Shown here: piece by piece, positions 2,175-12,212 of the stretch
How positions within the stretch are numbered: position 1 is the first letter of the stretch
How the letters are laid out: each line of letters starts with the position of its first letter
Assembly: GCA_030630395.1 (NCBI GenBank)
Contig: DAOVNE010000004.1
Span: 1 to 18,000, forward strand
DNA: 18,000 nt
From: Candidatus Eiseniibacteriota bacterium
GTDB lineage: Bacteria; Joyebacterota; Joyebacteria; Joyebacterales; Joyebacteraceae
Reading direction: 5' to 3'
The notes under the pieces: model-generated
Told to the model about the DNA's origin: nothing
What the model saw: the letters and a program-made list of their open reading frames with translations, nothing else
Databases searched by the model: none
Program-made: the position numbers and the translations under genes

Positions 2175-3014
2175 TCAGTACTCACGAAGCGTTCCGGTGA
2201 CCCGGACATGGTCGCACGCTCGTCCGAGAACAATGAGGCCGACCACGACCGAGACAGCGGCCGATACCAGGAGAAAGACAAGGTGTGTGGTGGTGGACGC
2301 GGCGCCGGCAATGGCGGTGGACGCGGCCTGAGTCGACCCGCGAAACCCGGCCCGGACCACAGGGAGAACGTGCGATGTGGGAAACACCCAGGCTGCCCTC
2401 TGCAGCCAGATGGGCATGAGCGAGACCGGGAAGTAGACACCGCCGAGCAATCCTGAAAGCGTTCCGAACGCCCACGACACGGGCTCCCCCTCCTTGAAGA
2501 TCATGATGAGGCCGGCCGAGACAAGCCCGATTCCACTCACTGTCAGGGAGTAGAGGATCACTGCCGCAAGCGCAGTGAGTGTGACCGGAATCGTCACATT
2601 GAGCAGGACCAGGACGATCACTGCCAGCCCGAGCACTGCGCCCTGTCCGATGATGGTCTCCGATAGCCCCGCCAGGAACACGAGCAACGTGATGGACCTG
2701 CCGCTCGACACGAGTTGCTCGAAGGTACCCTGGAGTTGTTCCCGCCTGACGGCCTTGCGGAAGGCGTGAAGCCCCGAGGCGGCGACACCGTGAACGGCTA
2801 CACCGATGAGCGCGAAGGCCGTGTAGGTCATCCCCACTTCATCCTCGAAGCCGGGCCCCGCCAGTTCCACGACCCTCCCCACAAACAGAAAGGTGATCGC
2901 GGACAGGATAAGTGACGCGAACCCCAGAAGCAGCTTCGACCGGTAGCTCGCGTACGTCAGTGCGCTCCTCACAACGAAGGCCCAGGCGAGATTCATGACG
3001 TCCCGTGACATCAT
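2175..3014 (-). CDS. ABC-2 type transporter permease
   Basis: A 279-aa polytopic inner-membrane protein with about six hydrophobic segments: roughly residues 28-48, 64-84, 108-138, 144-172, 180-202 and 245-266. The layout fits the ABC-2 family that exports drugs, lipids, polysaccharides or peptides. The stretch GGVYFPVSLMPIWLQ at about 191-205 is the typical ABC-2 motif before the penultimate helix, where a P-x-x-x-[LM]-P pattern is common. The ATG start overlaps the stop of the ATPase gene by 4 nt, so the two are translationally coupled and form one transporter. It has no peptidase domain, so a leader peptide would not be cleaved by this exporter. It is the last gene of the peptide operon and is the likely export route for the modified peptides; that substrate is inferred from context. 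Confidence 0.9.
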   Translation of the reverse strand: MMSRDVMNLAWAFVVRSALTYASYRSKLLLGFASLILSAITFLFVGRVVELAGPGFEDEVGMTYTAFALIGVAVHGVAASGLHAFRKAVRREQLQGTFEQLVSSGRSITLLVFLAGLSETIIGQGAVLGLAVIVLVLLNVTIPVTLTALAAVILYSLTVSGIGLVSAGLIMIFKEGEPVSWAFGTLSGLLGGVYFPVSLMPIWLQRAAWVFPTSHVLPVVRAGFRGSTQAASTAIAGAASTTTHLVFLLVSAAVSVVVGLIVLGRACDHVRVTGTLREY

Positions 3015-3676
3015 TCACACCCCAATTCCACGACCTGTTCGCAGAAGCGCGACTCCCCCATCCTGTGAGTCGCCATCACGAGGGCGCATCCGTCCTTGAG
3101 CCTCCGCTCGATCGCGGAACACACGAGAGCGCACCCGACGACGTCCAGAGAAGCAAACGGCTCATCCAGAAGAAGGAGCTCCGGCCCACCAAGAAAGGCC
3201 CTCGCCACAGCCAGTCGCGAGCCGGTTCCCCTGGAAAGCCGGCCGGCGCGCACGTTCAGCCACGGCTCCAGACAAAGCTCTTCCGCCACGCGGTCGATGG
3301 CCGAAGACAGTCCCCTGCCACTAAGACCGGCGAGACGCCCGAAGAATGCGAGGTTCATTCTGGTCGTCAGCCTCACATAGAACGAGCGCTCGGCGCCAAG
3401 GGAGACCCCTACACGGCGTCGAACATGCGCTGCCCGGTGAGTCACGTTGAAGCCGCAGACTACGGCACGCCCGAGCGACGGCTTGAGGAGTCCGGTGGCA
3501 ATGCGGAGCGCCGTGCTCTTTCCGGCGCCGTTCGGACCGATGAGAGCGGCCGCCTCGCCCGGCGCCACGGTGAAGCTGAGATCTCTCAGCGCGTCCAGTC
3601 TCTGCCCGCGGCGCAGGAAGTGTTTGCCGACGCCTGTGAACTCCAGGGCCTTCATTGCAGAACCCATAACTCTCAC
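3011..3676 (-). CDS. ABC transporter ATP-binding protein
   Basis: A 221-aa ABC ATPase that powers the permease encoded next to it. Walker A is GPNGAGKST (47-55), Walker B LLLLDEP (167-173), the D-loop follows at SLD, and the H-loop is His204. The signature is LSRGTGSRLAVARA (147-160) rather than LSGGQ. The Q-loop position reads GAERSFYVRLT, with Glu in place of Gln; both features are common in the ABC-2 exporter ATPases that carry an ERSFY-RLT motif. The start is GTG at 3676, which overlaps the TGA of the FG-GAP gene by 4 nt. ATG codons at 3667 and 3655 are alternatives, and MKALEF at 3655 aligns best with the usual domain start. At about 220 residues it is slightly short, but the core motifs are intact. 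Confidence 0.93.
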   Translation of the reverse strand: MRVMGSAMKALEFTGVGKHFLRRGQRLDALRDLSFTVAPGEAAALIGPNGAGKSTALRIATGLLKPSLGRAVVCGFNVTHRAAHVRRRVGVSLGAERSFYVRLTTRMNLAFFGRLAGLSGRGLSSAIDRVAEELCLEPWLNVRAGRLSRGTGSRLAVARAFLGGPELLLLDEPFASLDVVGCALVCSAIERRLKDGCALVMATHRMGESRFCEQVVELGCE

Positions 3677-5139
3677 CGTTCATTCCCGCCCGCTGCGACC
3701 CCATCAGCCACAACCCCGCCGGCGACCACGCGGAACTCGAACGCCTTGATACTCTGGGTGCGCGCGCTTATCACGATGAGATCATCCCCGCCGTCGCCGT
3801 TCACATCACACACGAGCACATCCGACACCCCGATGCCATCGGGGAGAGCAACGATCTCCTCGCCTGTTTCCCGCCTGAGCACCTGGGCGCCTCGCTCATG
3901 CCACGCCACGAGACACGATACGGCGGCTCGGCCTGATCCTGCGTTCCCGAGCGCGACGGGCACGGGCGCGTCGTAGACATCACCTCCGAGGTCAACTTCC
4001 CAGACGCGCCTCTCCCACTTGGGCGCTGCCGCGTACAGCATGCCGTCACTACAGCCAAAGACAAGCTCACAGCCGGCTGAGCCATCCACATCGACCGGCG
4101 CCATCTCGCCTATCGGTTCCCCGGTCCCTGCGATCGCGTCTCTGATGAAACGCGGCAGTCGCTTGCTGGCTAGCACTTCCCTGTGAGACTCGTTGCCGAA
4201 CAGCACGCGAACCAGTTCATCGCCTGTCGCTCCATCCAGAACGATAAGTGCGCCGGCGAAGCAACCGACGGCGACCTCGTTGTACCCATCACCGGTCAGA
4301 TCTGCGACGACGGGCACATTGCTGGCGACACCCTCGGGGTTCAGGCGGCCCTTCTTACCCAGCTTCAAGCTCCAGAGATCGTCGCCGGCCGATGAGACAC
4401 ATTTGAGGACGTTCGCGTTCTCCACGACCAGGATCTCCGACGCACCGTCCCCGTCGATATCGGCGCACTTGAGCTTCGACAACCCGTCCCCGAACACGCT
4501 GCTGTCATGCGTAGCGATCCTTCTCCAGCGTTCGACGAGGCCGGGAAGTTCCAGGGCCACCATGTAATCGCTCTTGTCGCCGCGAACAGTCACGATTATG
4601 AGTTGCTCTCCGGATGTCGTTCGCGCAACGCCGACACCACGGACCTTCCCTGACAGCCCGCACTCCGCGAGGGCCTTGCCGGTGGCGCCGCTCTGAATCA
4701 GAACGCTGCACGCGAAACACGTCACTACATCCCCCCCCGGAGAGCCCGGGAGGTCGACCGCGAGCACATGGACCGCAGCCGCGTAATCGGCGCGCCAGAT
4801 CTCAACCTCTTCCTCGAGTTCGAGCGCGATCACCGTGGAGGATTCCCTCCCCTTGCCCATTGTCACGATGGCATCGCGAATCCCATCCCCGTCGAGGTCC
4901 GCAAGAAGCGCCTCGGCGACGTTCGCGCCCGCGACGCCGAGGTTCATCGCCCACAGTTCGTTCAGCCTCACTGAGCCGGCGACCACCGGCGAGGCTATGT
5001 CCGACGTCGAGGACGCCTCCACGCCGGCACCGGCATGCGCCGCGGTGAGTGCCCCTGCACACAGGATCGCTGCGACTGTGATGACCCCTATCGATCGCGT
5101 CGCCATGGCGCCCACAGAACACCCACACGCGGCTCTCAT
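3673..5139 (-). CDS. Secreted FG-GAP/VCBS beta-propeller protein
   Basis: A 488-aa exported protein. A signal peptide lies at about residues 14-37: MATRS, then a hydrophobic core, ending at AHA-GA. At least five calcium-binding FG-GAP-like loops follow: DLDGDGIRDA (81-90), DIDGDGASE (227-235), DLTGDGYNE (280-288), DVDGSAGCE (350-358) and DVNGDGGDD (445-453). Each sits between short beta-strands, as in a seven-bladed propeller. It also has several Cys residues. The start at 5139 is supported by AGGGGGA a few bases upstream; it begins ten bases after the second peptide's stop, and its own stop overlaps the ATPase start. Lying between the precursor peptides and their probable exporter, it may bind, display or sense the exported peptide. 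That role is inferred from gene order only. Confidence 0.88.
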   Translation of the reverse strand: MRAACGCSVGAMATRSIGVITVAAILCAGALTAAHAGAGVEASSTSDIASPVVAGSVRLNELWAMNLGVAGANVAEALLADLDGDGIRDAIVTMGKGRESSTVIALELEEEVEIWRADYAAAVHVLAVDLPGSPGGDVVTCFACSVLIQSGATGKALAECGLSGKVRGVGVARTTSGEQLIIVTVRGDKSDYMVALELPGLVERWRRIATHDSSVFGDGLSKLKCADIDGDGASEILVVENANVLKCVSSAGDDLWSLKLGKKGRLNPEGVASNVPVVADLTGDGYNEVAVGCFAGALIVLDGATGDELVRVLFGNESHREVLASKRLPRFIRDAIAGTGEPIGEMAPVDVDGSAGCELVFGCSDGMLYAAAPKWERRVWEVDLGGDVYDAPVPVALGNAGSGRAAVSCLVAWHERGAQVLRRETGEEIVALPDGIGVSDVLVCDVNGDGGDDLIVISARTQSIKAFEFRVVAGGVVADGVAAGGNER

Positions 5140-5148
5140 CTCTTCCCC

Positions 5149-5316
5149 CTAGTAATCGACGAGACAGACGTCTCTGTTGCCGCAGCTTCCGAAATCAAAC
5201 CCGCACTGATCGACAGAGCCGCAGTCTCCCCAGTCAATGAAGATGTAGCACAAGAGCGAGTCCGGCACAGCACCCGACGAGTCCGGACCGCCGTTCGCCA
5301 ACCTGAGATGATTCAT
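5149..5316 (-). CDS. Cys/Asp-rich RiPP precursor peptide 2
   Basis: A 55-residue peptide from ATG 5316 to TAG 5149, with AAGGGG eight bases before the start. It begins MNHLRLANG, matching the neighbouring peptide's start (MKHMKLANG), and then runs through a Ser/Pro/Asp linker to a core with five Cys at 23, 32, 38, 45 and 51. Each Cys is followed at short range by Asp: C23-D28, C32-D36, C38-D41, C45-D49 and C51-D54. Two CxxxDxC modules (CGSVDQC and CGNRDVC) and the end CLVD have direct counterparts in peptide 1. CxxxD spacing is the crosslinking motif of freyrasin-type ranthipeptides, in which a radical SAM enzyme joins Cys sulfur to the Asp beta-carbon. It sits 38 nt after peptide 1 and 10 nt before the FG-GAP gene. 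It has no Gly-Gly cleavage site and no signal peptide. Confidence 0.85.
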   Translation of the reverse strand: MNHLRLANGGPDSSGAVPDSLLCYIFIDWGDCGSVDQCGFDFGSCGNRDVCLVDY

Positions 5317-5354
5317 CGTCTGATCCCCTTCCCAAACATCACCGCCCCCTGCAC

Positions 5355-5534
5355 CTACCCCGTATCAATGAAGCAGTTGTCATGCTGCTCGCATCCGCAC
5401 CCAGCATCCAGGATCCAGCAGAGATCCGACGAAGGACACTGTGAATAATCGACAAAACATATCTCGCTCGTCTCCGATTGCGCCGCGACCTCGGCCGTCC
5501 CTCTGATGCCGTTCGCCAGCTTCATGTGCTTCAA
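5355..5534 (-). CDS. Cys/Asp-rich RiPP precursor peptide 1
   Basis: A 59-residue peptide beginning MKHMKLANG and ending CFIDTG. Six Cys lie at 26, 33, 39, 46, 48 and 54. Cys-Asp pairs are C26-D29, C33-D37, C39-D43, C48-D52 and C54-D57. The CxxxDxC units are CPSSDLC and CEQHDNC. I chose the TTG at 5534 because AGGGGGTGAT, almost a perfect anti-Shine-Dalgarno complement, lies at ideal distance from it, and because the resulting nine-residue start aligns without gaps to MNHLRLANG of peptide 2. A GTG at 5543 (overlapping the radical SAM stop) and an ATG at 5525 are alternatives. Immediate coupling to a SPASM radical SAM gene makes it the probable substrate. The chemistry is inferred from the ranthipeptide family and has not been shown here. 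Confidence 0.87.
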   Translation of the reverse strand: MKHMKLANGIRGTAEVAAQSETSEICFVDYSQCPSSDLCWILDAGCGCEQHDNCFIDTG

Positions 5535-5539
5535 CCCTA

Positions 5540-7996
5540 TCACCCCCTCTCTCTCACCCTTGTCTCATCACTCACCTTTGCTTCGCGGTGGGCGTCGCCT
5601 CGCGCCCGACCACGCAGGCGCCTCCGCTGCTCCTCCGGAAGCTCCGCATACAGCCACATCGAGAGTTCGATGATCCTCCTCCGTACCGAACACCGCACCG
5701 CATCGTGCCCCACGGATTCGTGCGGCATCGTCTCCAGATCGTGATAGCAGGGGCCACCGCACAGGTCACGTGCCCAACAGTTGAGACAGGCGGACGATGC
5801 TGCCCGCAATCTCCCAAGCAGTGACGCGATCGCCCCGCGGTCGATGCCACCGGCCACGTGTCCCACGGCGAAGGCGCCGTTGCCGGCGAATCTGTGGCAG
5901 AGATAGAGCGTCCCGTCCGTCGCAACACAGAGATAGCGCGCCCCGGCGCCACACGGAGAGTCGCGGCGAGACCCGCTGGCCAGGAGCGCCATGGGCTCGG
6001 TGAAGCTGCTCACCGACGGGCGCGAGCCGCTTAGGAGCGCGTCGAGTTCCGATTCGGCAAGTGCTTCGAACTCAGAGCAGAGCCTGCGGGCGAACTCCGT
6101 TTTCATGCTCGTCCCACTCACCGGCGCCAGGTGCACCATGGAGAAGCCGAGCCCCGTGAGATGCTCCACAAGGGCGGTCAGTGATCCCGATGACTCGGTC
6201 ACGGTCGCCCGAACACCCACATTGAAGCCGGGAGGCAACTCCTTCAGATTGCGGATGATGTGCGCGTAGGATCCATCGCCGTTTCGGAAGCGGCGATTGG
6301 CATCGTGATCCTCCTCGCTGCCGTCCATGCTGATGAGACAATCGATCCCGAGTTCGGCGAGAAGCTCCGCGGTGCCTGGTCTGAGCAGTGTTCCGTTCGT
6401 TGTCATATGGAAGTGGATCTGCCGCCCCACCTCCTTGGCCCGCTCCCTCGCGTATCGAACGACCGGCCGGAGCAGCTCCGTCGCAAGGAGAGGCTCTCCG
6501 CCGAAGAACACGATTGACACCTCCGGCTCGCCGAACGACTCGCGCATCAGGACGTCGACGGCCTTGAAGGCGACATCTTCGGTCATGGTATCACCGGCCG
6601 TGCTCTCCTCATGACGTCCGCCGCCCACCCGAGAGGCCGGCGCAGCTCCGAGATAGCAGTAGGTGCACGAGAGATTGCAGATATTGCTCACATTGAGCGC
6701 GAGCGACTTGATGGATATCTCGATCGCCCCGGCCTGTCGCCCGTCTTGACAGGGCTTCCCATCGGACGCCAATCCCGCCACCTCGGATATGCCGGTTCGG
6801 ACGGAGGCCGCGCCGTGGTTGAGCTCGAGTACGGCCCGCTCAGCCTCGGGCGCCCGTCTCCTGAGCCACCTGATGGTGTCCCGGGCGACGGTGTCTGCCT
6901 CGAAGAAGAACCCGGACGCCGGATCGAATGCGAACTCCTTCCCTGCCACACTGAACGTGTGCAGCTCACGCGCCGCCACGATTGCGCGCGCGACGGAGTC
7001 GTCCGGATCGAAGCCATGCGAGACGGAGCCGCATGGGTCGGAGTCGTGCGCATCGGGCGCACCCGGAATCGAGCAGTGCTCCGGATCGGTTCGGGCGGCT
7101 CGCGCCTCAAGTGACAGACGGCGGGTCATTCGGGCGTTACCGCGGGCGGCGTCGCGAAGCACGGCGCCCAGGAACTCCGCGAGCTCTGGGCATGGGAGAT
7201 CCTCTGCCGCAGCGAGTGCGCGCGCGTAGCACGCCTCCATCGTTCCAGTGACTCTCTTCAGTGCGCCGGACTCGACCGCCATCCTGATGAGACCTCTCGC
7301 CGACAGCCCCTCCGGGAGTTCGGTGCGGCCGCTCCACCGAAGGAGCATCCACACTGTCGCCGACGGCCGATGCGCTTCCAGATCCTCGCGAAGATCGACC
7401 AGATCATCGGCCAGCTGGTAACCGGCGTGGTACTCCTCTATCAGCCGTTCCATGACTGGAAGAAGATCCGGACGCCCACCGAGAGTGGCCACGGCAGCCG
7501 CCGTGACCTTGAGCGGTGACATCTTCCTTCCCAGATGGAGAAGCGTGTGATCGAGTTCATCATCTCCGACGGCCCCGACACCTCCGTCACCGTGGTGGAT
7601 CGACAGCTCCCACTCGAGGCTTGAGAAGTACTCATCCATGAACCGGTCGTAGTGCTGCCAGAACTCGCTCTCCCGAGGCAAGAGCTCGCCGTACAGGCGA
7701 ACGAACTCGGACAGACATCTGTCACAGAAGCCCAACGCTCTCGGGCCGGCGTCACTTGTGCCGTCCAGGAATCCATCCTGGGAAAGGAAGTGCGCTGTGG
7801 CGAATGCGTTCCCCAGAGACATCGCTCTGGCGGCATCACGGTCGCCCTCAAACCGTATGCCCTCGATCAGAAGGAACGGAAGCGCGACGGCGATGTTGGT
7901 CGGTCTGATGCCCCTGTCCGACATCGTGTTCTCCGAACGGAGACGACTGACGGACGACTCGAAGCTGGACGCGACGATGCGCAGTTCCTCCTGCAT
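5540..7996 (-). CDS. Isoprenoid-synthase-like / radical SAM-SPASM peptide maturase fusion
   Basis: A protein of 818 aa (833 if a GTG at 8041 is used). Numbering is from ATG 7996, preferred because the 15 codons before it lose the gene's strong G/C third-position bias. Another ATG at 7924 has GGAG before it. Residues about 30-300 resemble a class I isoprenoid synthase: DGFLD (74-78, a degenerate DDxxD) and QLADDLVDLRED (194-205, the second Asp-rich motif). Residues about 346-395 (HTFSVAGKEFAFD) match the N-terminal region of SCIFF/QhpD-type maturases. The radical SAM cluster is C440-xxx-C444-xx-C447, followed by GGEP at 499-502. The C-terminal SPASM domain has C682, C690, C700, C737, C740, C746, C750 and C769, including CLNCWARDLCGGPC, so it probably carries auxiliary Fe-S clusters. 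It probably crosslinks the two peptides encoded just downstream. Confidence 0.9.
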   Translation of the reverse strand: MQEELRIVASSFESSVSRLRSENTMSDRGIRPTNIAVALPFLLIEGIRFEGDRDAARAMSLGNAFATAHFLSQDGFLDGTSDAGPRALGFCDRCLSEFVRLYGELLPRESEFWQHYDRFMDEYFSSLEWELSIHHGDGGVGAVGDDELDHTLLHLGRKMSPLKVTAAAVATLGGRPDLLPVMERLIEEYHAGYQLADDLVDLREDLEAHRPSATVWMLLRWSGRTELPEGLSARGLIRMAVESGALKRVTGTMEACYARALAAAEDLPCPELAEFLGAVLRDAARGNARMTRRLSLEARAARTDPEHCSIPGAPDAHDSDPCGSVSHGFDPDDSVARAIVAARELHTFSVAGKEFAFDPASGFFFEADTVARDTIRWLRRRAPEAERAVLELNHGAASVRTGISEVAGLASDGKPCQDGRQAGAIEISIKSLALNVSNICNLSCTYCYLGAAPASRVGGGRHEESTAGDTMTEDVAFKAVDVLMRESFGEPEVSIVFFGGEPLLATELLRPVVRYARERAKEVGRQIHFHMTTNGTLLRPGTAELLAELGIDCLISMDGSEEDHDANRRFRNGDGSYAHIIRNLKELPPGFNVGVRATVTESSGSLTALVEHLTGLGFSMVHLAPVSGTSMKTEFARRLCSEFEALAESELDALLSGSRPSVSSFTEPMALLASGSRRDSPCGAGARYLCVATDGTLYLCHRFAGNGAFAVGHVAGGIDRGAIASLLGRLRAASSACLNCWARDLCGGPCYHDLETMPHESVGHDAVRCSVRRRIIELSMWLYAELPEEQRRRLRGRARGDAHREAKVSDETRVRERG

Positions 7997-8097
7997 GTCG
8001 AATCGGCTTCGTCTGTTGGCTGGTGCCGGTACTGCTGCCACTATTAGGTTTGACCCGTTGGGGAGTATCCGTGGATTCAGAGGTAGGTACTGCAGGA

Positions 8098-8113
8098 AGC
8101 AAGTTGCCGACCA
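8098..8113 (-). promoter_or_regulatory. Sigma-54 (-24/-12) promoter candidate for the peptide operon
   Basis: The minus strand reads TGGTCGGCAACTTGCT, preceded by C. This matches the sigma-54 consensus YTGGCACG-N4-TTGCW at the TGG of the -24 element, at the G ending that element, and at all of TTGCW, with the required ten bases between GG and GC. Transcription would begin near 8087, leaving a leader of about 90 nt before the ATG at 7996. A sigma-54 activator is encoded next door, and two dyads lie at enhancer-like distances upstream. Four of the eight -24 bases differ from consensus or are weakly conserved, so the call is probable, not certain. Confidence 0.6.
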
Positions 8114-8184
8114 GCTCAGACGGACTGAGACTGAGCAGGGTCGATATCATTGCAGGCAGCGCAAAGGGACGCGAATATAGAGAA

Positions 8185-8208
8185 CGGCGTGGCCTCATGG
8201 CCACGCCG
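8185..8208. promoter_or_regulatory. Perfect 10-bp dyad, probable activator site
   Basis: The arm CGGCGTGGCC is followed by a TCAT spacer and the exact reverse complement GGCCACGCCG. Its centre is about 109 bp upstream of the predicted sigma-54 transcription start, the classic spacing for an enhancer-binding protein. It is not followed by a T run on either strand, so an intrinsic terminator is unlikely. The Fis-type HTH at the C-terminus of the neighbouring activator, or the response regulator at the window edge, could bind it. Confidence 0.55.
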
Positions 8209-8264
8209 CGCACTGCCTGAACTGTCTACTTGGATTACATACTACATCGCCCTTGAATGCGGAG

Positions 8265-8307
8265 AGCCGGCAGGCGAATTGTGGAAGGTTGCTCGCGCCT
8301 GCCGGCT
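8265..8307. repeat. 12-bp inverted repeat with 19-nt loop
   Basis: AGCCGGCAGGCG (8265-8276) and its exact reverse complement CGCCTGCCGGCT (8296-8307) are separated by 19 nt. The centre lies about 200 bp upstream of the predicted operon start, a distance still usable by a sigma-54 enhancer. No T run follows. It could alternatively be a stable RNA hairpin if the region is transcribed. Its arms differ from those of the dyad at 8185-8208, so the two may serve different proteins. Confidence 0.5.
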
Positions 8308-8517
8308 TCGTGGGCTGGACCCCATCCTGGGAGGAGAGTGCAGCTGACCAGTGGTGCGGGACGGATGAAGTCCATGTGGAGAGCTGTTGGGTGCTGCCTC
8401 GTTGGTGTCACTCCTTGTTGTCACCCCGTGTTTCTTCTCTATCGTAGCAGCTACCGGCAGGTGCCAGGAGGTGTAGCAGCTGTTCAAGTTCAGCCGAGGA
8501 ACGGCGAGGCTATTCCG

Positions 8518-8766
8518 ATGAGCAGGATCACGATTATTATCTTAACTCTCGCCGCGCTCGGCATGGCTACTCTCTCTCTTCTATGTCATCTCCCCGATGA
8601 ATCCGGAGAGCCTGTGATTCCTGGAAGGGAGGAGGGCCATAGACCGACCGCTCTCGCCCCCCTGATAATCTCACTCACGGCCACACCCCCTTCCAAGTCC
8701 TGTTGTCAAAGTTCTAACCTCCTTAAGGGCAGACATCGTGCCAGTTTGGGCCAATCGGCCCCCTAA
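8518..8766 (+). CDS. Possible small membrane protein (weak)
   Basis: An 82-residue frame beginning MSRITIIILTLAALG, with one hydrophobic helix at about residues 4-23, then a polar tail with Cys59 and Cys60 as a CC pair. GAGG lies eight bases before the ATG. It ends as SLLCHLP after the helix, which is not a proper lipobox. Codon third positions are less G/C-biased than in neighbouring genes, and it resembles nothing I recognise. It is the only gene-like frame on the plus strand between 5.5 and 13.4 kb, and it could be chance. A frame extending it upstream to ATG 8365 is also open. Confidence 0.25.
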   Translation: MSRITIIILTLAALGMATLSLLCHLPDESGEPVIPGREEGHRPTALAPLIISLTATPPSKSCCQSSNLLKGRHRASLGQSAP

Positions 8767-8825
8767 TCGTGCTCCCGATCAGCAGAGCTAAACCACCTAC
8801 CCTCTGCAAGTTACGGCACCCGTGA

Positions 8826-8921
8826 GTAAGTTGACCAGGTCTCATATCGGTGAACGGTGGCAGGTTTTGACCGCAGATCGGACGCTCTTGAAGGGGATTG
8901 CCGCTAACTTGGTCAAGTAAC
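8826..8921. repeat. Imperfect inverted repeat of a GTnA-n-TTGACCA-n-GT motif
   Basis: GTAAGTTGACCAGGT on the plus strand near 8826-8840, and GTTACTTGACCAAGT on the minus strand near 8907-8921, share the TTGACCA core and flanking GT/A/GT bases (about 12 of 16 positions). The cores are about 72 bp apart. A pair of facing copies suggests a protein-binding site, but no nearby plus-strand gene is clearly served. No function is assigned. Confidence 0.35.
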
Positions 8922-9019
8922 AGCAGTTACGCGACCGTCACGTTTACGACGCCGTGTCAGAGATTGGACGCTTCCGGAGAGCCTGAGGGACGCCTCCCGA
9001 GTGGCCCTGAGCGGCAATG

Positions 9020-9042
9020 AAAAACGGGCCGACTTCGGCCCG
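9020..9042 (-). terminator. Intrinsic terminator of the sigma-54 activator gene
   Basis: On the minus strand CGGGCCGA, then a tight loop, then TCGGCCCG is followed directly by TTTTT. This is a textbook Rho-independent terminator, about 70 bp after the stop of the TPR/GAF/sigma-54 activator. It separates that transcription unit from the promoter region of the peptide operon. Confidence 0.88.
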
Positions 9043-9113
9043 ATACGGATGGAGTTCGGTAGTTGACTTGTGGTGAGATCGACGGCGGCACGCGTAGTCG
9101 CTCACAGGCAGGG

Positions 9114-12100
9114 CTACCCGATTCCGTGCTTCTTCATCTTCGCGTGCAGACCCGTGCGCGATATGCCCAGGATCTCGGCTGCCTGCTGCTTGTTCCACCC
9201 TGTGCGGTCGAGCGCCTCGAGGATCCGGCTTCGCTCCAGCGCGTCAACCTCATCCCTGAGCGACCGGCGGCCACCCTCATCGGCCTCGGCGCCCGTACCC
9301 ACATCGACACGAGTCCTGATCTCGGGACTCATCTTGTCCATGCCGATGGTCTCGCCGCTCTTGGTCAGGGCAACACCGCGACGGACTTCGTTCTCCAGCT
9401 CTCGCACGTTGTTTCCACGCCATCCGTGCCTCAGGAAGAGCTCCCTCACTTCTCGCGTGAACCCGGGGATCGTCTTCCCCTCTCGCTTCGCGTAGAGCTC
9501 AAGGAAGTGGTCCATCAGCCCCGGGATGTCCTCCGGGCGCTCCCTGAGCGGAGGCACTTCTATCGTAATGGCGCAGAGTCTGTAGAACAGGTCCCGTCTG
9601 AATTCGCCGCTCTCGACGTCCTTTCGCAGGTCCCTGTTCGTGGCGGAGACGACGCGGGCATTGCTCGTCCTCGTGACGCTCTCTCCCACCCTCCGGAACT
9701 CGCCATTCTGGAGGAATCTCAGGAGCTTCACCTGGAGCCCGGGACTCATCTCACCTATCTCGTCGAGGAAAAGCGTTCCATTGGCCGCGGCCTCGACAAG
9801 GCCCTGTCGATCGCGGTCGGCATCCGTGAAAGCACCCCGGACGTGCCCGAAGAGCTCGCTCTCCTGGAGGTTTGCAGCGATGGCGCCGGAGTTCAGGGCC
9901 ACGAACCTTCCGGTGGCCGTCGTGCTGCTGGAGTGGATAGCCTTGGCAACCAGCTCCTTGCCGACACCCGATTCTCCGCGTATGAGAACCGGAACACGGC
10001 TGTCCTCCAGCTGTTCGATCGTAGCCAGGATCTGGACCATCTCGGGGCTTCGCGTGATGAGCCCGACCGTCTCAGCCGAGTCTAGCAGCTTATCGGCCTC
10101 CTCGTCCGTCGAGCGCAAGACCATGGTCCCACCGACGCGTGAGTGGGTGAGGCCAAGCACCCGGCCTGACGCACTCAGGAACTCCACGTCGCTCTGCGTA
10201 AACGCAACCGACCTGTCACCTCGAGAGCGATCCGCGTACACGAGGTAGACTCGCTCGCGGTCGAACCCGACTTCCACCGGCAGGAGCGCGAGCGCGCCCA
10301 CTTCGGGTTGGGTGAAGGCACCGTGGGAATGTCCGTTGCTGACGACGAGAGGACGCGAATGACCGCGTTTCGAAACCGTCGTCCGCACGAACCGGCTCAC
10401 ATCCGACACCCCTCTTCCCGTGGTATCGACCGAAGTCGTCACCGACGTGGCGCCTCCTTCGGCGACCTGGAAGAGAACCAGCCGGTCCGCCGACAGAGCG
10501 CTCGCCAACTCTCCGGCGAAGCGATGGAGGTCGTCGGGACTCGGCTCCGTCGTCTCAAGGAACCTGTAGCCTTTGGCAATCAGTGCGTACCGACCCCGGC
10601 GAACTACTCCCGCGTCTGCCAGAATCGCATCCAGCTCCATGAGTGCGGCGTCGATTCTAGCCAGACCATGGCTGTCGTGCGCCGCCTCGAATCTGAGTCG
10701 TGCGCTCTCCAGCCACCTGCGCGCACGGTCGGGCAGTCCGCTCGCCTTGAGCGCCTTGCCGCGTTCAAACTCACATTGCGCCACCCAGTTCGGCAGGCCG
10801 ATGCGCGCAAAGATGGCGGCCGCAGACGAGAGCCTGGCTTCGATCAGATCGATCGGCGGTTCGTCCCCGACCGATGATTCCCTGAGGCCGATACCATCCG
10901 TGAGCGCCGCCCTCGCGAGCTCGAACGACTCGCCGATGCGACGCAGTATCTCCTCTGCCCTGTGTATGAGAACCTCGGCGGCGGTCCGTTCCCCCTTCGC
11001 GTAGCAGACACCGGCCAATACGCGGAGGGTCGCACCCTCTTCGAGGCTGTCGTTGATCTCACGCGTGAGCTTGATGCCATCGGAGCAGTCACGCTCCGCC
11101 TCGTCGAGCCTGCCGAGTTCCATGTAGACTTCGGCGCGCCTCCTCAGGACCTCGCCCACAACGTCGCTGTTTGACGAAAGTCTGTAAGCGCATCCGAGCG
11201 CTCGATTGAACTTCCTAAGCGCCTCCTCATACTCGCCGCGATCCATCTCCAGATGACCGATGAACTCGAGAGCCAGAGCCTCGGCCCTCAAGTACCCGTT
11301 CTCCTGGCTTGTCGAGAGAGCGTTCTGGAAGAGCCTCTGTGCCTCTCCCCACTCGCGCCGCATGCGGAAGATGTTGCCGAGCGCCGACTCCGCGGCCACG
11401 AGGCCACGAGTCGCGCCGATCTGCCCGTAGAGCGCGCGTGCTTCGTTGAGCTTAGTCTCCGCCTCACCCCAGCGGGAGAGCTTGTAGAGGATGATGCCGA
11501 GGTTGGTGAGACGGTCCGCGATTGCCATCGCGTGACCGAGTCTCCGGTCGATGGTGAGAGCACTGTCGATGTACTCGAGCGCGCCGTGGAAGTCGCCCGA
11601 CCGCTTCGCCAACACGCCCAGGTTATTGTAGGCGGCAGCGAGTCCGGCTTCATCGCCGAGGCGCTTCTGTGTTACGAGGTAGTCTGTGAAGTAGTCGCGC
11701 GCCGCCTTGATGTTGCCCAGTTCGGCGTTCGCGATGCCCAGGACCTTGCCTGCCTCAGCCAGAAGCGGGCTGTCAGGCCTTGTTCTCAGGATCTCGTAGG
11801 CCTTCCGTCCTGCACGCAGCGCCTCGTCGTAGCGTCCGCTCTCGATCTCGACGCGGGCGAGCACGACGTTCGCATCGGCCCACGCTGATCCATCATCTTC
11901 ACTGAGATCGAGGTCGTCCAGTGTCGCGCACTTGCGCCTGGCGTCATCGTAACTGCCGAGACCAAGGTGGCACTTCGCGATCCTCACCAGAAGGGCGGCG
12001 GCCTCAGGGTCGGTGAGCTTCTCACGAAGCTCCCCGACCTCGGCCTGTTCGAAATAGCTCAGCGCATCAGTGTAGCTATCGGATTCGAGATAGACATCGC

Positions 12101-12212
12101 CCAAGCGCATCGCCGCGACTGCAGCATCTCTGCCGCTTTGCGACTTCAGCACCTTCTCGAACGCTTTCAACATCTCGCGTTCCGGCGCTTTGTCTTTTCC
12201 CTTGTCGCTCAT
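9114..12212 (-). CDS. TPR-GAF-sigma-54 AAA+ activator with Fis-type HTH
   Basis: A 1032-aa enhancer-binding protein without a receiver domain. Residues about 25-510 are tandem TPR-like helical repeats (for example AAAYNNLGVLAKRSGDFHGA from 192 and ALALEFIGHLEMDRGEYEEA from 312). About 555-695 looks like a GAF domain. The AAA+ domain spans about 710-950: Walker A GESGVGKE (746-753), sigma-54-contact loop GAFTDA (793-798), Walker B GTLFLDEIGEM (812-822) and an arginine-finger region FRRDLFYRL (871-879). A Fis-type HTH fills 985-1030 (NKQQAAEILGISRTGLHAKMKK). The loop has Asp where GAFTGA has Gly. The protein should remodel sigma-54 RNA polymerase in response to a ligand or partner sensed by the TPR/GAF half. 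It is encoded beside an operon with a sigma-54-like promoter, so that operon is a likely target. Confidence 0.93.
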   Translation of the reverse strand: MSDKGKDKAPEREMLKAFEKVLKSQSGRDAAVAAMRLGDVYLESDSYTDALSYFEQAEVGELREKLTDPEAAALLVRIAKCHLGLGSYDDARRKCATLDDLDLSEDDGSAWADANVVLARVEIESGRYDEALRAGRKAYEILRTRPDSPLLAEAGKVLGIANAELGNIKAARDYFTDYLVTQKRLGDEAGLAAAYNNLGVLAKRSGDFHGALEYIDSALTIDRRLGHAMAIADRLTNLGIILYKLSRWGEAETKLNEARALYGQIGATRGLVAAESALGNIFRMRREWGEAQRLFQNALSTSQENGYLRAEALALEFIGHLEMDRGEYEEALRKFNRALGCAYRLSSNSDVVGEVLRRRAEVYMELGRLDEAERDCSDGIKLTREINDSLEEGATLRVLAGVCYAKGERTAAEVLIHRAEEILRRIGESFELARAALTDGIGLRESSVGDEPPIDLIEARLSSAAAIFARIGLPNWVAQCEFERGKALKASGLPDRARRWLESARLRFEAAHDSHGLARIDAALMELDAILADAGVVRRGRYALIAKGYRFLETTEPSPDDLHRFAGELASALSADRLVLFQVAEGGATSVTTSVDTTGRGVSDVSRFVRTTVSKRGHSRPLVVSNGHSHGAFTQPEVGALALLPVEVGFDRERVYLVYADRSRGDRSVAFTQSDVEFLSASGRVLGLTHSRVGGTMVLRSTDEEADKLLDSAETVGLITRSPEMVQILATIEQLEDSRVPVLIRGESGVGKELVAKAIHSSSTTATGRFVALNSGAIAANLQESELFGHVRGAFTDADRDRQGLVEAAANGTLFLDEIGEMSPGLQVKLLRFLQNGEFRRVGESVTRTSNARVVSATNRDLRKDVESGEFRRDLFYRLCAITIEVPPLRERPEDIPGLMDHFLELYAKREGKTIPGFTREVRELFLRHGWRGNNVRELENEVRRGVALTKSGETIGMDKMSPEIRTRVDVGTGAEADEGGRRSLRDEVDALERSRILEALDRTGWNKQQAAEILGISRTGLHAKMKKHGIG

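Follow-up and report, generated by a model that had tools for sequence, protein, structure and literature searches.

Peptide prenyltransferases similar to PalQ and thioether synthases similar to QhpD or PapB are each already known. PalQ is a standalone prenyltransferase from the PalQ/PalX/PalP system of Paenibacillus alvei; the precursor is an NHLP-type ribosomally synthesized and post-translationally modified peptide (RiPP) with a C-terminal Trp (PMC10853753). QhpD is a radical S-adenosylmethionine (SAM) enzyme with a SPASM domain that makes thioethers between Cys and Asp or Glu (PMC7876137), and PapB forms thioethers at Cys-Xn-Asp, with n = 0-6 (PMC9413430). Here we analyze an 18,000-nucleotide stretch of DNA from a Candidatus Eiseniibacteriota bacterium (contig DAOVNE010000004.1; hereafter, the window), in which a single predicted enzyme appears to combine both kinds of domain and is followed by two small Cys- and Asp-rich peptides, A and B. 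We propose that this is a RiPP operon with a bifunctional maturase, which would install five Cys-Asp thioethers and prenylate a conserved Trp. The case is built from sequence analysis, and we consider this reading somewhat probable.

A preliminary description of the locus had reported a SPASM radical SAM gene followed by two Cys/Asp-rich peptides, a propeller, and an exporter of the ABC-2 type (ABC is short for ATP-binding cassette), and had read this as a RiPP-type operon. We confirmed this gene order and the close junctions between the genes, and our results support a RiPP-type operon. The preliminary description overlooked the PalQ-like domain, the leader that resembles QhpC, a sigma-54-like site, the two-component genes, and the conservation of the system across the phylum.

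Cys-Asp peptides and the radical SAM half of the enzyme

The fusion enzyme (positions 5540 to 8041; all of the operon's genes are on the minus strand) contains, from its N terminus, a PalQ-like prenyltransferase domain, a region that resembles a RiPP recognition element (RRE), and radical SAM and SPASM domains. It has 833 amino acids if read from a GTG; the ATG at 7996 is the likely start and agrees with where the preliminary description had placed the end of the region. Five nucleotides downstream lies peptide A (5355 to 5534, minus strand), which has 59 residues from a TTG, the leader MKHMKLANG, a core that begins at the first Cys and holds five Cys-Asp modules, and a Trp within CWILD. After another 38 nucleotides comes peptide B (5149 to 5316, minus strand), with 55 residues, the leader MNHLRLANG, five Cys-Asp modules, and a Trp right behind the first Asp (IDWG). 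An alternative GTG start for peptide A, at 5543, would give 62 residues and overlap the stop codon of the enzyme. By eye, the sequences that resemble ribosome binding sites in relatives favor the M-K-H-L start for peptide A, which is a TTG in the window.

Drawing on the window plus 17 further loci, we compared 37 such peptides (18 A, 15 B, and 4 that belong to a third type, C), after leaving out a spurious open reading frame (ORF) from tblastn in L035 and the B peptide of L045. Ignoring any Cys before residue 16, 193 of the 194 core Cys have an Asp partner in the pattern C-x2..5-D, while 1000 within-core shuffles gave a mean of 95.6 and a maximum of 120. The single misfit is an extra Cys in the A peptide of L045. 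Five Cys and five Asp are invariant in every type (18/18 A, 15/15 B, and 4/4 C). The spacings in peptide A are C-x2-D, x3, x3, x3, and x2, plus one extra Cys that is also found in the other members of the window's genus and in the A peptide of G008. In peptide B they are C-x4-D, x3, x2, x3, and x2. The regular Asp behind each Cys, which had been noticed in the window, is thus borne out in the larger set. The earlier count of two precursors is right for the window, but four loci (L036, L037, L039, and L041) carry three, with peptide C as the third. Neither A nor B matches any Pfam or NCBIfam family, in keeping with the preliminary description, which did not recognize them as any described family. 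The omitted B peptide of L045 (genome G017) has a TGA at its first Cys (4558 to 4560 of that locus), roughly 80 nucleotides from the end of the contig; candidate explanations are a sequencing error, a nonsense change, or selenocysteine.

A database search with the peptides (447 candidates) gave 104 matches at E <= 0.01, which are partly the same genomes' peptides and so are not all independent. The five-module pattern is present in 103 of them; in the misfit, P0259, it is lost past the third Cys. All 103 peptides that fit the pattern have a Trp in the core. Furthermore, the first module is C-x4-D in 98 of the matches, and the next residue after the Asp is Trp in 97 of these (including P0259) and Phe in the other. 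Peptide A instead has a Tyr right after the first Asp and, in 17 of 18 cases, a Trp right after the third Cys.

In an actinobacterial relative (L116, 977 to 7731), a SPASM radical SAM gene adjoins a peptide that has six similar Cys-Asp modules as well as a stretch, DLCW, reminiscent of peptide A; genes that by eye resemble ABC transporters and CAAX proteases lie downstream. Cys-Asp precursors thus extend beyond the window's phylum.

The leaders of peptides A, B, and C appear to be QhpC-like. The motif M-x0..3-[LIVMF]-[KRQTS]-x-x-N, most commonly in the form MKHL[KR]xxN, starts 33 of the 37 operon peptides and 20 of 27 scored QhpC, as compared to 42 of the 3744 contexts of a Met that the loci contain when read in six frames (operon peptides included). 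These 27 are the QhpC that passed our filter, which is fewer than the QhpC listed, and for 3 of the 7 that miss the motif, the filter had picked an inner Met. The QhpD/QhpC system also shares with the operon a SPASM radical SAM enzyme, a leader that starts in the manner of MKHLKPxN, a substrate for Cys-Asp/Glu thioethers, and ABC export (PMC7876137). However, the QhpC that we listed have about 106 residues or more. QhpC also receives three thioethers plus cysteine tryptophylquinone (CTQ), and its partners are QhpA, QhpB, QhpE, QhpF, and QhpG (PMC7876137).

Across seven loci, the mean pairwise identity is 73% (A) and 86% (B) in the leader, just 23% and 22% in the spacer, and 58% and 72% in the core. 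The corresponding values are 55% for the RRE, radical SAM, and SPASM part of the enzyme, 48% for its N-terminal domain, 50% for the ATPase, 58% each for the permease and the kinase, 74% for the sigma-54 activator, and 40% for the propeller, which is the least conserved protein compared. Leader and core are both under selection, with conservation above that of the maturase for the B core (clearly) and for the A core (slightly). We rejected a classical bacteriocin or a variable pheromone because the core is too highly conserved.

The radical SAM and SPASM domains (5642 to 6712, minus strand) contain CX3CX2C at residues 455, 459, and 462 and seven SPASM Cys (697, 715, 752, 755, 761, 765, and 784); all ten are invariant in an alignment of 24 sequences. 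The RRE-like region (residues 346-422; 6776 to 7006, minus strand) was recognized from its position and from a predicted helix, three strands, and three helices, rather than with an RRE profile. Among the 25 of 68 matching families that were listed, QhpD and PapB are the nearest by profile, but the enzyme scores below the cut-offs of both (254.9 bits against 453 for the QhpD profile, TIGR03906, and 253.1 against 340 for the PapB profile, NF047865), as it does for the SCIFF maturase profile (TIGR03974; 188.1 bits against 425). The nearest solved structure is the SCIFF maturase CteB (PDB 5wgg; sequence E = 1.6e-45, fold E = 7e-22), which is also the best fold match of the RRE-rSAM-SPASM half; the sequence match begins at residue 359 of the enzyme. 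(The fold comparison covered Foldseek's top 1000 chains, and folds missing there carry no meaning.)

In a tree of 49 rows, eight fusion enzymes form one clade (support 99/100). PapB (four rows, all over the family cut-off) forms a separate clade (100/100), and both the SCIFF clade (100/99) and a clade that holds all 14 QhpC-linked rows (96/99) also lie apart from the fusion enzymes. Two of the seven SCIFF rows (L164 and L165) are known to pass the family cut-off and the others are SCIFF by kinship; the deep order of the tree is without resolution, and several rows are long-branched or of unusual composition. In view of the low scores and the separate clade, we rejected membership of the maturase in the PapB, QhpD, and SCIFF families. 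The precursors differ as well: SCIFF-like precursors at L160 and L164 do not have Cys-Asp modules, unlike A and B. PapA, the precursor of freyrasin type, shares repeated Cys-Xn-Asp modules with our peptides, and the maturases are similar by profile, but PapA has six CX3D motifs (PMC9413430), while the enzyme described here is below the PapB cut-off, belongs to a clade of its own, and has the fused prenyltransferase domain.

Nevertheless, the locus has the genomic hallmark of ranthipeptides (peptides with thioethers from Cys to carbons other than the alpha carbon), namely a Cys-rich precursor with closely spaced acceptor residues, encoded next to a radical SAM/SPASM maturase, and the radical SAM half very probably forms thioethers on the Cys-Asp pairs. 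The Cys-Asp thioethers that the preliminary description had suggested are well supported as a prediction. Membership in the PapB or SCIFF families is not supported, and "SPASM enzyme" leaves out the fused PalQ-like domain, which makes "ranthipeptide-type operon" just half of the story.

The PalQ-like domain

Residues 16-330 of the enzyme (7052 to 7996, minus strand) form a domain of the class I isoprenoid synthase kind that is homologous by profile to PalQ, a peptide-tryptophan prenyltransferase. In a profile-profile comparison with the PalQ family, this domain had a probability of 99.7 and E = 1e-26, while a comparison with the phylum's own polyprenyl synthases (from 11 of 24 polyprenyl-synthase loci) gave a probability of 11 and E = 0.0027; these are pairwise E values, not database E values. 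We recognized the PalQ family by its cluster layout and by identical residue numbers, and the comparison was made without the sequence of P. alvei PalQ itself. In the 30 best-matching loci of PalQ homologues from Paenibacillus, which over-represent close relatives, an NHLP-like peptide that ends in Trp is present in 30 of 30 by eye and in 28 of 30 by an automatic pattern.

The residues that characterize PalQ are its first Asp motif (FARM, D89/D93), its second Asp motif (SARM, D200/D204), and Q197, the proposed indole-binding Gln (PMC10853753). Their counterparts in the fusion enzyme are D89-x3-D93 (7763 to 7777, minus strand) and Q209-L-A-D212-D213-L-V-D216 (7394 to 7417, minus strand). D89, D93, Q209, D212, D213, and D216 are invariant in our alignments of 24, 20, and 15 sequences, and the corresponding residues show no variation among 31 PalQ-family proteins. 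(Within the first Asp motif, the second position is variable, with D, G, E, R, and others.) The N-terminal domain is almost certainly homologous to PalQ. We rejected the idea that it is a housekeeping polyprenyl synthase: PF00348 matches 8 of 20 members with E = 0.02 at best, and does not match the window's domain, and separate polyprenyl synthases score above the cut-off in all 20 of the phylum's genomes.

We found the N-terminal domain in each of the 20 genomes of the phylum that we examined, and both halves of the enzyme are in one open frame in 18 of these. The peptide profile matched 41 places in 19 of the 20 genomes. We looked for peptides in the phylum that lack a radical SAM neighbor, but 39 of the 41 places are beside an enzyme gene or a piece of one. 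The other two (G011:C99) are on a 3.5-kb contig, and the enzyme of G011 runs off the end of contig C127. G005 apparently has two copies of the enzyme, one of which is split across contig ends (contigs C56, C89, and C76). In a search of 5.8 billion proteins, which scored the 7994 candidates that shared the most words, 29 of the 31 matches listed at E <= 1e-5 cover both halves (at least 64% of the enzyme), and the other two cover 37%.

Across 386 genomes, the domain profile (which was built partly from G071 and G073) identified the phylum's 20 genomes, G071, G073, G444, G473, and, weakly, G449. In G444, the PalQ-like gene adjoins an NHLP-like peptide with a Trp third from its end, and a long ORF that resembles the Paenibacillus kinases is nearby. 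In G473 (L253, 7542 to 10839), four NHLP/Nif11-like peptides stand behind a PalQ-like gene; they begin almost identically (MSQKGIEQLIGK) and, as read, have no Trp. This PalQ-like protein is standalone and does not have the second Asp motif. (NHLP-like and Nif11-like are presumptive names, given by eye, where we use them for the peptides of L174-L203, L253, and L255.) In G073 (L204, 3996 to 10449), the PalQ-like domain is fused to a domain that resembles squalene-hopene cyclase. A small Trp-bearing ORF precedes this fusion, and an ABC ATPase, an FG-GAP propeller, an ABC-2 permease, and an M50 peptidase follow it; no radical SAM gene was recognized among the ORFs of at least 150 amino acids on this 11.8-kb stretch, five of which were scanned. 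So, a propeller and an ABC-2 exporter recur with the PalQ-like domain in a locus without a recognized radical SAM gene, and G073 possibly carries a second kind of prenylating RiPP operon. In G449 (L254, 1073 to 8699), a weakly PalQ-like gene is near several small paralogous proteins of about 100-130 amino acids, some of which start like MPIW[IV]HFEF. Overall, the survey suggests that the PalQ-like domain represents a broader family that is associated with RiPPs and has been fused to more than one kind of partner.

The operon and its upstream region

From 5' to 3', the genes are the sigma-54 activator, then (after a gap of about 1.1 kb) the enzyme, A, B, the propeller, the ATPase, the permease, and the kinase, all on the minus strand. 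The FG-GAP beta-propeller (3673 to 5139; PF13517, 5e-11) begins 9 nucleotides after peptide B and is syntenic in relatives; it is probably secreted, as its N terminus looks signal-like by eye. The DrrA-like ABC transporter ATPase (3011 to 3676; PF00005, 4e-23) has 134 of 312 bits for TIGR01188 and so is under that family's cut-off. It overlaps the propeller gene by 4 nucleotides and the ABC-2 permease (2175 to 3014; PF01061, 2e-9) by another 4. A sensor histidine kinase (104 to 1951) with PAS, HisKA, and HATPase domains, as identified by domain profiles, is the last gene inside the window, which ends before the position of the response regulator. In the 10 contigs that are long enough (L032-L037, L039-L041, and L047), a kinase and then a response regulator with a sigma-54 domain are always downstream, with a 1.9-kb gap ahead of the kinase in L047; the regulator of L032 is the one that we read as a whole protein. 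Upstream of the enzyme is a sigma-54 activator with tetratricopeptide repeats (TPR) (9114 to 12212; PF00158, 3e-63; PF13424; PF02954), and all 19 of the phylum's other loci (L032-L050) have it there too. The genome from which the window comes is 74% complete.

About 700 nucleotides upstream of the enzyme is a sigma-54 promoter-like site (TGGCACGATGTCTGC; 8729 to 8743, minus strand). Taken by itself, the window gives no significant sigma-54 site: it has 11 matches where chance would give 14, and when the intergenic region was shuffled 500 times, an equally good site arose in 26 cases, so it is conservation alone that counts for this site. Indeed, all 18 loci compared have TGGCA-N7-TGC at the aligned position, 582-883 nucleotides upstream of the enzyme match. 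(This comparison used 18 of 20 loci, with L045 and L050 excluded, and the best match per locus was chosen before aligning.) Between the site and the enzyme is a small ORF for a hydrophobic peptide of 24 amino acids (MPSAARVKIIIVILLIGIASPFLG; 8490 to 8564, minus strand). Its C terminus, LLIGIASP[FV]LG-stop, is kept in all 18 loci, and the conservation stops at the stop codon. The same long leader contains a conserved stretch similar to GGGGGGCGAGTCCGGTCGCTC, again in 18 of 18 loci. We found no Rfam match at E <= 0.1 in 5100-9200.

Mechanism, alternatives, and significance

We propose that the RRE-like region would bind the leader motif of A, B, and, where present, C. The radical SAM/SPASM half would link each of the five core Cys, via a thioether, to the Asp that lies 2-5 residues on, and the PalQ-like half would move a prenyl group from an allylic diphosphate onto the core Trp, which is right after the first Asp in B and right after the third Cys in A. 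The ABC-2 exporter would carry the modified peptides out, with the propeller as a secreted partner, and a protease encoded elsewhere would cut off the leader. The product may be sensed by the downstream kinase and response regulator, which may in turn work through the sigma-54-like site. Anatomy, homology, conservation, synteny, and residue identities are what we observed; both reactions on A and B, leader binding, export, and sensing are what we infer from them.

Several findings weigh against prenylation or against parts of this scheme. The Trp that PalQ prenylates is C-terminal, and residues placed behind it cost the enzyme its activity (PMC10853753), while the Trp of A and B is internal. 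Furthermore, PalQ without D200/D204 retains end-point activity (PMC10853753), so the conserved second Asp motif is no proof of catalysis. The Trp is not absolute either: the one A peptide of G005 has no Trp after the third Cys (another Trp is present), and one of the four C peptides has a Phe after the first Asp. The peptides without Trp and the missing second Asp motif in G473 imply that Trp need not be the target throughout the wider domain family, and the Trp-less peptides lowered our confidence in prenylation. Within the phylum, the two halves are in two frames in G016, and G014 has just a fragment of the domain. No leader protease was found among the eight window proteins scanned, and kinases and sigma-54 regulators are common genes. 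Given the homology, the conserved residues, and the Trp found in the peptides of the PalQ-homologue loci, in the small ORF of G073, and in the 103 database peptides, we still lean towards the view that the N-terminal domain prenylates the A and B peptides, most likely on Trp.

The operon might instead be for Cys-Asp crosslinks alone, as in other ranthipeptide-type operons, with the N-terminal domain as a noncatalytic relic of a PalQ-like ancestor that is used for docking or dimerization. All of the evidence for crosslinks holds without prenylation; PalQ is a homodimer that binds its peptide (PMC10853753), and the domain could serve in binding alone; and both the variable position in the first Asp motif and the loss of the second motif in the distant relative from G473 are consistent with this. 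But pure docking would not need the six residues that are invariant in the 24 enzymes and whose counterparts are invariant in the 31 PalQ-family proteins, and we view this alternative as unlikely. It is far less likely still that the peptides bind metal or form disulfides and have no thioethers. Judging from the sequences, alternating Cys and Asp could bind metal, although no result backs this, and the conservation of leader and core around a variable spacer, as well as the SPASM enzyme beside 39 of the 41 peptide places, speaks against this reading.

What the product does is a separate question, for which we considered two roles. The peptides could be crosslinked small subunits that are exported to sit with the propeller, similar to QhpC in the quinohemoprotein amine dehydrogenase (QHNDH), and this would fit either chemistry. 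The QhpC-like leader, the nearness of QhpD by profile, the propeller gene directly after the peptides, the conserved core, and the export of QhpC by an ABC transporter (PMC7876137) are all consistent with a structural role. On the other hand, a scan of eight window proteins showed nothing like QhpA, QhpE, or QhpG (no search aimed at these was made), and the propeller has the lowest identity of all the proteins compared. In addition, ABC and propeller genes also stand behind the PalQ-like fusion on the G073 stretch, which has no recognized radical SAM gene. Alternatively, a prenylated and crosslinked autoinducer could be sensed by the downstream kinase, as in the comQXPA and pal clusters. In pal (PMC10853753) and com (PMC4008528), a kinase is beside the peptide and the prenyltransferase, and here a kinase and a sigma-54 regulator follow in the 10 contigs that are long enough, with the sigma-54-like site upstream; but the C-terminal, active part of ComX is where that peptide varies most (PMC4008528), while the core is conserved here. 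We consider each of these roles doubtful and about equally so, and the evidence separates neither from the other.

The pal system shares with this operon the prenyltransferase domain with counterparts of D89/D93, Q197, and D200/D204, a RiPP precursor with a conserved Trp, and a histidine kinase nearby (PMC10853753), but in our operon a radical SAM enzyme is fused to this domain, and the Trp does not stand at the C terminus of the peptide. ComQ/ComX (PMC4008528, PMC10853753) shares a peptide Trp prenyltransferase of isoprenoid-synthase fold, a kinase and regulator, and an internal Trp; however, it has no radical SAM enzyme, the core of ComX is highly variable, and ComQ lacks the second Asp motif. 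Among the titles and abstract openings listed in our searches of open-access literature, we found no description of both activities as one enzyme. By kinship, the window's phylum is Candidatus Effluviviacota, and the main text of a genome paper on that phylum (PMC11323493), when searched by word, contained none of the terms RiPP, radical SAM, biosynthetic, secondary metabolite, and quorum.

We tentatively suggest, with some doubt, that these "lipidated ranthipeptides" might be a hybrid RiPP class in which one fused polypeptide performs both radical Cys-Asp crosslinking and Trp prenylation, and that the product might be a secreted signal, or a factor at the cell surface, that is conserved throughout the phylum and is not an antibiotic. 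If both halves work, then a single polypeptide would stabilize a peptide with thioether rings and also lipidate it, which would be attractive as a tool, and the enzyme would make it possible to test how two catalytic domains are served by a single leader-binding region. With the domain in all 20 genomes and the peptides in 19, the operon also offers a testable extracellular trait for a phylum that is known here from metagenome-assembled genomes.

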